Shown: positions 1 through 64,000 of the stretch, in pieces
Layout: each line of letters begins with the position of its first letter
How positions within the stretch are numbered: the first letter of the stretch is position 1
From: Thermosulfurimonas sp. F29
Lineage (GTDB): Bacteria; Desulfobacterota; Thermodesulfobacteria; Thermodesulfobacteriales; Thermodesulfobacteriaceae
NCBI RefSeq assembly: GCF_019688735.1
Contig: NZ_JAIFYA010000003.1
Location: forward strand, 248,001 to 312,000
DNA length: 64,000 nt
Reading direction: 5' to 3'
Notes under the pieces: generated by a model
Told to the model about the DNA's origin: nothing
What the model saw: only the letters and a program-made list of their open reading frames with translations
Databases searched by the model: none
Made by a program: the position numbers and the translations under genes

Positions 1-408
1 CATCGGGGGCTTTATGCCTACACCGTGGGACAGAGACGGGGGCTCGGGCTGAGGCTGGGGCGTCCCTACTATGTGGTGAGGCTGGATGCCCGGAGAAACC
101 GGGTCGTCGTGGGGGAAAAGAAGGATCTTTTCTGCCGGAGTTTTCTCGTGGGCGGGGTGAACTTCATCTATCCCCTGGATCCGGGAAGGCCCTTTCGGGC
201 GGAGGTGCGGATCCGCTACCGTCACCGGGAGGCCCCGGCGGAAGTGCAACCCTTGGCGGACGGCCTTTACCGGGTAATATGGGAAAGACCCCAGAAGGCC
301 GTGACGCCCGGGCAGTTTGCGGTCTTTTACCGGGGGGATCTGGTGCTTGGTGGGGGAGAGATCCTTCCGGAGGAGGACGATGGCCAGGATCAGGTTTCTT
401 CCGTTTGA
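1..408 (+). CDS. mnmA: tRNA-specific 2-thiouridylase MnmA, C-terminal part
   Basis: This is the 3' end of a gene that starts left of the window; frame 1 is open from base 1. The visible part has the late MnmA signature YTVGQRRGLGLRLG followed by the C-terminal beta-barrel domains (strings such as YYVVRLD and GQFAVFYRGDLVLGGGEI). MnmA places sulfur on U34 of Lys, Glu and Gln tRNAs in the cytoplasm. The N-terminal PP-loop and catalytic cysteines lie outside the window. Its end overlaps the next gene by 29 bp, so the two are probably co-transcribed. Confidence 0.9.
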   Translation, partial: HRGLYAYTVGQRRGLGLRLGRPYYVVRLDARRNRVVVGEKKDLFCRSFLVGGVNFIYPLDPGRPFRAEVRIRYRHREAPAEVQPLADGLYRVIWERPQKAVTPGQFAVFYRGDLVLGGGEILPEEDDGQDQVSSV

Positions 409-58689: not shown

Positions 58690-58784
58690 GGAGGGGTGCC
58701 CGAGTGGTCGAAGGGGTGCGGCTGGAAACCGCATGTGCGGGGCATAACCCCGCACCGAGGGTTCGAATCCCTCCCCCTCCGCCA
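58690..58784 (+). tRNA. tRNA-Ser (anticodon GGA)
   Basis: The acceptor is GGAGGGG/CCCCTCC with discriminator G and encoded CCA. The anticodon stem is TGCGG/CCGCA with loop CTGGAAA, giving GGA. A long variable arm (TGTGCGGGGCATAACCCCGCACC) marks a class II tRNA. The T-arm is GAGGG-TTCGAAT-CCCTC. It marks the border between the core run and the accessory region. Confidence 0.96.
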
Positions 58785-59965: not shown

Positions 59966-62535
59966 GTTTCCATTCCTCATAGGTAGGCTCGAAACAGTAT
60001 GTCCTCGATATGCAAAGACGAATATGGGAAAGTTTCCATTCCTCATAGGTAGGCTCGAAACCCTTCTTATTTTCCTTTTCTTTTTCTTTTTCATTTTCCC
60101 GTTTCCATTCCTCATAGGTAGGCTCGAAACGCCACGGGCCCCACGGGCCCGCACGGGACGATCAAATGTTTCCATTCCTCATAGGTAGGCTCGAAACAAG
60201 TCTCGTGCTCCGGAGGCTCAGGAGTTTGTTCGTGGTTTCCATTCCTCATAGGTAGGCTCGAAACGAATTGCTCAAGTCTAATTCTAACATTGTCGTCGAT
60301 AGTTTCCATTCCTCATAGGTAGGCTCGAAACGAATTGCTCAAGTCTAATTCTAACATTGTCGTCGATAGTTTCCATTCCTCATAGGTAGGCTCGAAACGC
60401 TTATTATAAACAAAACGCCCAGGTTGAAAACTACGGTTTCCATTCCTCATAGGTAGGCTCGAAACAGCTTTCCCTCGTGAATACGCAAAGTCCACTTACG
60501 CTGTTTCCATTCCTCATAGGTAGGCTCGAAACGGTTTTTTAAAAATGCCTTAAAAGGCATTTTCCTGGGTTTCCATTCCTCATAGGTAGGCTCGAAACAT
60601 TAACTCTCTCCAGGCAGCAAATGTCCCCGTAAATGTTTCCATTCCTCATAGGTAGGCTCGAAACATCTAGACTTGGAATACTATACTGTATCTGGTGCAT
60701 AGTTTCCATTCCTCATAGGTAGGCTCGAAACTGGTTTATCCTTGATATCGATTATGGCCATTATGATGGTTTCCATTCCTCATAGGTAGGCTCGAAACCA
60801 TGCTGACCTAGCTAAAGTTCTTCTTGAAGCTTAGTTTCCATTCCTCATAGGTAGGCTCGAAACGGGTTCCTGAGATAATTAGGGTAGTTTCGTTTGAGAA
60901 GTTTCCATTCCTCATAGGTAGGCTCGAAACCAGTAGGAATATTCGAAGAAGACAAAGTCGAATTAAGTTTCCATTCCTCATAGGTAGGCTCGAAACTATT
61001 CTGTCTTTATTTTAGTGAGGGGGGGAGCCTAAGTTTCCATTCCTCATAGGTAGGCTCGAAACGGTTTTCCAAGCTTGACGGCGGCGGCATCAAGCCCGGT
61101 TTCCATTCCTCATAGGTAGGCTCGAAACATGCGTTAGCACTCTGGGGGCGTGCCTTGGAGCGTCGTTTCCATTCCTCATAGGTAGGCTCGAAACTGTGGA
61201 CACGGTGGGAAAGCAAAAAACCATTGAGAAGGGTTTCCATTCCTCATAGGTAGGCTCGAAACAAGTACCATCCGAAAGGTAAAAATAGAGACGGCCATGT
61301 TTCCATTCCTCATAGGTAGGCTCGAAACAAGTCTCGTGCTCCGGAGGCTCAGGAGTTTGTTCGTGGTTTCCATTCCTCATAGGTAGGCTCGAAACACCGC
61401 CCAAATAGACGCAATAGCCCCTACAATTACACGTTTCCATTCCTCATAGGTAGGCTCGAAACAATAGCGTCATGAAAGCAGTATAAAGCAACAATCGAAG
61501 TTTCCATTCCTCATAGGTAGGCTCGAAACGACGCTTCCACTCCCGGGCGTCGGCAGGGTAAAAGTTGTTTCCATTCCTCATAGGTAGGCTCGAAACCACC
61601 TGGACCCGCATACGATTAAACCGCCAATTCCGCGTTTCCATTCCTCATAGGTAGGCTCGAAACCTCGCCCCCCAGAAAAAATGGGGAAGGCCGAGGATAA
61701 CGTTTCCATTCCTCATAGGTAGGCTCGAAACTCAGTAAAATTATCAACAGTACGATTCGCAAAATCCGTTTCCATTCCTCATAGGTAGGCTCGAAACAAG
61801 CGTGGCGTCCGGCATTGGCATATCTGCTTGTTTCCATTCCTCATAGGTAGGCTCGAAACTTAGGAGTTTTGAGGATTTTTTAAACCGCAGGATTTGTTTC
61901 CATTCCTCATAGGTAGGCTCGAAACGCGCATGGGGGTTTCTCGGTCTCAGATGATTAATAATCGTTTCCATTCCTCATAGGTAGGCTCGAAACGGGTCCT
62001 TCGGCAAAGAAATACGACCCACATTCTCGCGTTTCCATTCCTCATAGGTAGGCTCGAAACTCGTAAGGTTAAGCGCCATCTTGATTATTTTACTCGAGTT
62101 TCCATTCCTCATAGGTAGGCTCGAAACCCACGCTGCTTGAGCAGTGTCTCACGGCCCTGGAGTTGTTTCCATTCCTCATAGGTAGGCTCGAAACTCGGCG
62201 TCCATGGGATTCTGGGCGATGTAGGCCTGCCACGTTTCCATTCCTCATAGGTAGGCTCGAAACAAGACGGTGGAGTACCAGGGGAAGAAGAACGAATCTT
62301 CCGGGTTTCCATTCCTCATAGGTAGGCTCGAAACGAGCTGGTCAGCCGCCTTTTGCATGGCTTCAAGAGCCTGTTTCCATTCCTCATAGGTAGGCTCGAA
62401 ACTGATATACGCCCATCTTGCCCCTGACCATCTAAAGCGTTTCCATTCCTCATAGGTAGGCTCGAAACTGATCCGAAGACTTCCTGGGATGACGACGGGG
62501 CCCGTGTTTCCATTCCTCATAGGTAGGCTCGAAAC
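59966..62535 (-). CRISPR. CRISPR array with 39 repeats and 38 spacers
   Basis: Thirty-nine copies of a 30-nt repeat occur, on the plus strand starting GTTTCCATTCCTCATAGG and ending GGCTCGAAAC, with no differences that I could see. Spacers are 32-41 nt, mostly 36-37. The reverse complement ends in GGAATGGAAAC, like Thermotoga-type repeats, and the AT-rich leader and cas2-cas1 lie on the right, so I infer transcription on the minus strand with new spacers added at 62535. One spacer is present as adjacent copies (60265-60301, 60332-60368) and another as distant copies (60198-60234, 61329-61365). Subtype cannot be fixed from cas1 and cas2 alone. Confidence 0.98.
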
Positions 62536-62822
62536 CCCTCTAAAACTACTCGGTACATATTTACCATAAAGAATTTGGAAAATAAAGGGTTTGAAGGGGG
62601 GCTAAAATAAAGAACGAGGGATTCAAGCGGGAATAAAGGCCGCTAAACCTCCAATAGAGCAAAAAAGTCCTTTCGTCCGGCGGCAAGAAGGCTAGTATTT
62701 TTAGAGCTGAATAGTATGACTAAAAATAACATCCTGTTATCGAGAAATTAGCTTTAGGGGGTACCTGAATACATGTATGAAATAGAAAAATACAAAAATG
62801 ACGAAGATTGGTAGGTATTAAT
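62536..62822 (-). promoter_or_regulatory. CRISPR leader region
   Basis: The 287 bp between the array and cas2 are AT-rich, with no coding frame, and carry A-runs and TATA-like strings (such as 62795-62815). Position next to the newest spacers and to cas2 fits a leader that drives the array on the minus strand and guides spacer insertion. Exact promoter elements are not assigned. Confidence 0.7.
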
Positions 62823-63089
62823 TCATAGAAACCGTTTTTCCGGATCCTGTTTCTTGCGGCCTAGGAGGCGACGCAGAAAATACCGCCGGGTGCGAAAGGT
62901 ATAAACGATCACCGAGTCCTCCTCGGAGTTCATTACCTCCCTGAGCTCTGCCAGCAACCGCTCAAGCTGGGCCAGACTCAACTCTCCCTCAAAGACCGAA
63001 AGCTGAACCCAGTTGAGGTATTTGCGACAGATCTTGTGAAACTTCTGAACCCGCTTAACTCCGGCATCATAGACCAGTATTACAAACAT
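62823..63089 (-). CDS. cas2: CRISPR-associated endonuclease Cas2
   Basis: The 88-residue protein starts MFVILVYDAGVKRVQKFHK with the conserved Asp8 and has the family region WVQLSVFEGELSLAQLERL. Cas2 binds Cas1 to insert new spacers. CAGGAGG precedes the ATG by 8 nt. It lies between the leader and cas1 on the same strand. Confidence 0.95.
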   Translation of the reverse strand: MFVILVYDAGVKRVQKFHKICRKYLNWVQLSVFEGELSLAQLERLLAELREVMNSEEDSVIVYTFRTRRYFLRRLLGRKKQDPEKRFL

Positions 63090-63326: not shown

Positions 63327-64000
63327 CTACCGCGTCCTCACATAGGGAAAATAGACCTCCTCGCCGAGGAAGTGTTTGTAGAGCTTGTAACACTCAAGAC
63401 GAATCAGGCGCCGGTAGGAGACTTTGCGTTTGAGGCCCTTGTGCATCACGGTCTCGGAAAGGCGGGCGTCATAGGCCTCAAGAAAGCGTTTCAGGCCTCG
63501 TTCCTTAAGATATATACCGCCTAACTCCTCTCGGAAGTCCTCGGCCTTGATTTCACGGCGGTTCACCAGGGCGAAGATCACCCGGTCCACGATGAGGGGT
63601 TTAAAGACCTCGGCAAGGTCAAGGTTCAGGGAAAAACTCCGCTCGTTGGTCTCGTGGAGAAACCCTATGCGGGGGTCAAGATGGGTGCGGTAGATCTCAG
63701 AGAGGGCCGTTACATAAAGAAGGGAGTTTCCGAAGGAGATGAGGGCGTTTAAGCGGTTTTCCGGAGGCCTTCGGCTGCGGCGCTCGAAACGAAAGTCGGA
63801 ATTTTCGAGAATGGCGTCAAAGGCGGAGTAATAGATCTCGCGGGCACGGCCTTCTAAAGCCATAAGCTCCGCCGGGCTTTGCGCGGCGTTAAGCCCTGCC
63901 ATCACTTCTTCTATCCCGGTGATTTGTTCGGATACCGGTTTCCCCCCGCGAGCCGTAGACCCTGAGGTTAAAGAGCATGTTACCCATGGCTCCGTAGACG
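63327..64000 (-). pseudogene. cas1: CRISPR-associated integrase Cas1, 3' part, frame broken
   Basis: The last 190 codons give the Cas1 catalytic domain with its metal ligands: Glu in MALEGRAREIYY, His in RIGFLHETNERSF and the acidic residue in LNLDLAEVFKP. Upstream the reading continues as GKPVSEQITGIEEVMAGL, but the preceding piece, GNMLFNLRVYGSRG, is in another frame. The switch is at a run of six G (63942-63947 on the minus strand); five G would restore one frame. The N-terminal domain lies right of the window. It may be a true mutation, slippage or a base-call error. Confidence 0.85.

Follow-up and report, generated by a model that had tools for sequence, protein, structure and literature searches.

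Array and neighboring genes

The window, by which we mean the whole 64,000-nucleotide stretch of Thermosulfurimonas sp. F29 that was analyzed, carries a CRISPR array on the minus strand at positions 59966–62535. Parsing of the array yields 39 repeats of 30 nt and 38 spacers of 32 to 41 nt. The repeats are regular and identical to each other, as expected of a CRISPR array, and the 38 spacers comprise 36 distinct sequences. About 1.2 kb to the left of the array lies a gene for tRNA-Ser (gga) at 58690–58784.

The genes beside the array (locus L009) are cas2, a cas1 in two parts, cas4, cas3, the genes for Cas5b (TIGR01895), Cas7/Cst2 (TIGR02585) and Cas8b1/Cst1 (TIGR01908), and cas6, all of them on the minus strand. 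This is the gene set of a type I-B CRISPR-Cas system, and the array belongs to such a system. The product of cas2 (62823–63089, minus strand) matches the NCBIfam model TIGR01573 with 46.1 bits against a cut-off of 24.5. The type I-B cas1 (63327–64000, minus strand) continues beyond the end of the window and, in this assembly, falls into two frames near a run of Gs at 63937–63950.

Judging from the order cas1, cas2, array, the stretch between the array and cas2 (62536–62822, minus strand) is presumably the leader. We take the crRNA sense of the repeat to be the strand reading ...GGAATGGAAAC, which is the pattern we associate with such repeats. The cas genes lie on this assumed sense strand too. 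A related locus, L057, shows the same arrangement, with the array placed after cas1 and oriented like it. Repeat sense and gene order, the latter as in relatives such as L057, would thus place the leader at the right end. If order reflects age, then spacer 38 is the newest spacer, and spacer 4, one of the two copies discussed below, holds the older position.

Two duplicated spacers

Two spacers of the array occur twice. The first was pointed out in the initial annotation, and parsing agrees with that description: the same 37-nt spacer is found on the trailer side as spacer 4 (60198–60234, minus strand) and on the leader side as spacer 21 (61329–61365, minus strand). The two copies agree at 37 of 37 positions and lie 17 units apart, and the neighbors of spacer 4 (spacers 3 and 5) differ from those of spacer 21 (spacers 20 and 22). 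Together with the repeats on both sides and 2 further nucleotides, the identical stretch is 99 nt long (60166–60264 around spacer 4 and 61297–61395 around spacer 21, both minus strand). A match of two unrelated 37-mers would arise by chance with a probability of about 4 × 10−20 (703 spacer pairs, uniform base use). Allowing up to 3 mismatches, the sequence has only these two sites in the bacterium's own assembly (2,345,565 bases in 9 contigs).

The second duplicate was absent from the initial annotation. Spacer 5 (60265–60301, minus strand) and spacer 6 (60332–60368, minus strand) are identical and form a tandem pair that abuts the trailer-side copy. In the window array, no two spacers differ in length only or are shifted against each other, and no non-identical ones have 16 nt in common.

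Searches for the protospacer

The proposal that the duplicated spacer be compared with viral and plasmid sequences was followed up, and no protospacer was found in IMG/VR or among the phages, plasmids, and genomes searched. Spacer 4 gave no match in IMG/VR with two 20-mers (one per end) and three patterns of every third base; neither did spacer 5 with two 19-mers (one per end). A 23-mer of spacer 4 had no match in a collection of genome contigs, from which the bacterium's own genome may have been excluded. When spacers 4 and 5 were compared with 99 genomes at up to 3 mismatches, and the array repeat with 198 genomes, the bacterium's own genome, which was included in both sets, was the only one to match.

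The other 34 distinct spacers were covered by searches with the whole array against phages and plasmids. Among phages, 20 records were returned, all with E values of 0.8 or weaker. Among plasmids there were 15 records, the strongest being plasmids of thermophiles that match in many pieces at about 70%. To us, these strongest matches look like the arrays of other organisms. Short exact plasmid matches of 22–24 nt had E values of 0.7 or weaker.

Duplicate spacers in related arrays

To the window we added 122 loci around cas1 genes (L056–L177). Arrays with at least 10 spacers were kept and repeats of the same array were removed, which gave 68 arrays with 3,805 spacers from 63 sources; 17 of the 68 are cut by the end of a contig or of the fetched sequence. 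Counting the window, an exact duplicate is present in 21 of the 68 arrays, and 16 of them have an isolated pair, that is, two identical spacers that are not adjacent. For arrays with repeats of 29 or 30 nt the counts are 19 of 59 for any duplicate and 15 of 59 for an isolated one. Measured against the number of spacers, duplicates are scarce, with 63 extra copies among the 3,805.

Within the 29/30-nt set, 20 isolated families and 4 partial blocks compare with 10 single tandem duplicates and 3 full blocks. The copies of an isolated pair are separated by a median of 9 units, and by at least 15 units in 8 of 21 pairs; 12 loci added later to this set brought no further isolated pair. Exact isolated pairs lie nearer to each other than random placement would give (mean distance 11.0 versus 24.1).

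A tandem pair lies next to an isolated copy not just in the window; the same is seen in L057 and L160, though not in L132. Among 62 arrays, four carry both an isolated and a separate tandem pair, and in three of these four one pair of each kind is adjacent; no further array with both kinds came from the extended set of 68. Random placement would give 0.61 adjacent tandem pairs on average instead of 3 (p = 0.014, for a pattern that had been noticed before it was tested).

Two surveyed pairs resemble that of the window closely. In L070 (spacers 9 and 25) a single exact copy lies at a distance of 16 units, and in L134 (spacers 83 and 98) at a distance of 15 units; both arrays are next to cas1 genes of the I-B type. 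Repeats, spacers, and organisms differ from ours, and the origin of these pairs is likewise unproved. Separately, one array (L071, 11044–14149, in a one-contig genome) is heavily reshuffled: among its 41 spacers a multi-unit block is repeated at an offset of 7 units, and there are more isolated copies.

How often is one protospacer captured twice?

A protospacer that is taken up a second time should keep its start on the PAM side, whereas its length may change. In the arrays with repeats of 29 or 30 nt there are nine pairs that share the 5′ start and differ by 1–2 nt in length, and none that share the 3′ side only. The nine pairs are spacers 18/22 and 23/55 of L096, 30/33 of L101, 78/80 of L117, 58/88 of L127, 82/94 of L131, 35/43 of L153, and 3/11 and 17/20 of L154. 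A further 14 pairs have the same start but contain mismatches, as would result from variant invaders; in 5 of these 14 the length is equal. We left out one pair of equal length with mismatches (L129, spacers 35/47), because it is inside a duplicated block. Recapture of one protospacer thus very probably happens in these systems. In addition, spacers 16 and 20 of L089 are reverse complements of each other over 37 nt within one array; perhaps one protospacer was inserted in both orientations.

The nine length variants allow us to predict how many recaptures should be exact. With the ratio from the mismatch pairs (equal length in 5 of 14), we expect 5.1 (1.3–17.1), to be set against 20 isolated exact families, which corresponds to 25% (7–86%). 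If the marginal length distribution is used instead, the prediction is 3.8. Spacers shared across arrays could have served as an independent estimate of how often lengths are equal, and we found no such pairs. Copying is therefore the probable origin of most isolated exact pairs, although the interval is wide. The spacer 4/21 pair, with the same start and the same length, is compatible with copying and recapture alike. Distance within the array was dropped as a discriminator, as the length-variant recaptures span 2–32 units and overlap with the exact pairs.

Simulated routes to isolated pairs

For slippage, our simulation used a mean block length of 2.7 units, which is the published value for deletions and was applied to duplications too. 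Short slippage combined with deletion placed 0.2–0.8% of isolated pairs at least 15 units apart, compared with the 8 of 21 observed, and we reject it as the usual source of such pairs. For the window, we also reject a single tandem block event with no subsequent deletion, since neither copy shares neighbors with the other. With block lengths drawn uniformly at random, 17–20% of isolated pairs were at least 15 units apart; tandem pairs made up 2–3% and partial blocks over half, and in these two shares the model is unlike the survey. When a single unit was copied to a random position, 32% of isolated pairs were at least that far apart, and almost no blocks arose.

No single simulated model fits all classes of pairs. 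Since short slippage almost never reaches 15 units, pairs this far apart need an event of longer range. The simulations favor long-range transfer, which could be gene conversion, template switching, or exchange between sister arrays; the long range also fits recapture.

Discussion

Our results suggest, with moderate confidence, that the spacer shared by positions 4 and 21 was duplicated by recombination-type copying within the array. One spacer-repeat unit would have been copied to a second place through recombination between the identical 30-nt repeats. As all 39 repeats are identical, any two of them are able to misalign. The copying may have taken the form of misaligned gene conversion or of template switching during replication. 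It may also have been a single unequal exchange between two sister arrays with only the trailer end 1-2-3-S in common, where S is the duplicated spacer: if an array X (1-2-3-S-5..20) was joined to S-22..38 of an array Y, the order that we observe would result, with S alone duplicated. Both copies would give the same crRNA, hence no new target would be gained.

The initial annotation had held that recombination between repeats would have to duplicate a whole block. This does not agree with the isolated pairs in 16 of 68 arrays or with the lone far units reported for Mycobacterium tuberculosis (PMC7708916). The argument also fails for the unequal exchange described above, which would leave a single duplicate. 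Of the three origins it had listed, gene conversion gains from our analysis, with recombination-type copying in general better supported; capturing the same protospacer again may account for about a quarter of such pairs (7–86%).

No new spacer has entered the M. tuberculosis array for 5000 years or longer (PMC7708916). That report lists 16 tandem duplications and 4 that involve rearrangement; three of the latter four are single units and one is a block of four units (PMC7708916). Among the far copies it describes are DVR3 between 12 and 13 and DVR38 between 55 and 56; that of DVR35, also one of the three single units, may go back to the common ancestor (PMC7708916). Single far units in an array without acquisition imply that recombination can act without a whole block being duplicated. 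The window resembles these DVR cases in that one unit is duplicated far off, next to neighbors unlike its original ones, and in both, as far as that account goes, tandem single-unit duplications occur alongside the far copy. The comparison is one between different organisms and loci; in M. tuberculosis many isolates attest to the lack of acquisition and far copies are the minority there, whereas our case comes from a single genome.

A broader precedent is the SpacerPlacer analysis of CRISPRCasdb, which counted 805 duplicate candidates among 24,090 spacers, none of them in 171 of 333 groups, and calls such events rare (PMC11472070). Duplication was the class assigned to 695 of the 805 candidates (86%) and rearrangement that assigned to 43, while reacquisitions (8) and independent insertions (7) made up about 1% each (Table 2 of PMC11472070). 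These cases are like ours in that an identical spacer occupies two array positions. According to the same source, their classification relied on a tree and on comparison of related arrays, of which there were several, whereas our pair is known from one array.

The main competitor of copying is independent recapture: the same PAM-anchored protospacer would have been captured on two occasions, separated by 16 other acquisitions. We consider this possible but unlikely. The nine length-variant pairs and the 14 pairs with mismatches speak for it, and in Legionella pneumophila, during priming by a type I-C system, 2 of 23 independently acquired spacers are reported to have come from one protospacer (PMC5071653). 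A review likewise mentions that a second encounter could conceivably yield the same spacer twice (PMC8047081). An equal length would not be a rare coincidence either, given that 18 of the 38 window spacers are 37 nt long. Yet recapture predicts only about 5 of the 20 isolated exact families, isolated exact families outnumber the length-variant recaptures, and the window array itself contains neither a length-variant pair nor a shifted one. The tandem pair 5/6, itself a duplication that abuts copy 4, points to local rearrangement, and the failure to find a protospacer in the collections searched is weak evidence against recapture. What counts against copying is that the recapture share reaches 86% at its upper bound, and that the excess of isolated over tandem pairs in our survey could be due to recapture. 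The ratio of isolated to tandem pairs is higher in the survey than in the acquisition-free M. tuberculosis, which lowered our confidence in copying from fairly firm to moderate, and moved recapture from rather unlikely to somewhat less so. Faster loss of tandem copies could also account for the isolated excess; duplicated spacers may indeed be lost faster, as the SpacerPlacer paper notes (PMC11472070). Our inference of recombination over recapture draws on survey statistics and published precedent.

That the second copy is an assembly artefact is very improbable. Short reads that did not span the identical stretch of 99 nt might have produced a false copy in this draft of 9 contigs, and the frameshift at the G-run of the adjacent cas1 could be a sign of consensus errors. 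However, unique spacers flank both copies, and a genome with one copy should offer an assembler neither two entries nor two exits. Isolated exact pairs are also found in one-contig genomes (L057, spacers 42/48; L070) and in L134, whose record bears the title complete genome.

A spacer duplicated far apart is an ordinary and already known kind of array change. Hence, a spacer that is present twice is by itself no evidence for a repeatedly met invader; with no protospacer found in the collections searched, our spacer does not establish that there was one. Similarly, the position of a spacer in an array is no clean time stamp. The survey provides a yardstick: pairs with the same start and different lengths indicate recapture, while exact isolated pairs probably have mostly another origin.

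One could also imagine a common origin for the copy of S and the adjacent tandem pair, namely a single template-switching event with several jumps, in which the nascent strand slipped by one repeat and then jumped about 16 repeats and back. This is a speculative idea, and we think it improbable. If it were true, such jumps would continually supply type I-B arrays with isolated copies, and the order of spacers could be trusted less as a clock than is assumed.

The frameshift in cas1 may bear on how the array can change. In the relatives L057, L063, L065, and L078 the gene lies in one open frame (65–79% identity per part). The frameshift near the G-run may mean that adaptation has truly been lost, or it may be a homopolymer or other sequencing error. 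If it is real, the system's own Cas1 could no longer extend the array, and recombination would be the main route of change that is left. The genome has a second CRISPR array with different repeats of 37 nt (L075, contig C2, 10612–11573), and this array is adjoined by its own cas1, which is in one open frame.
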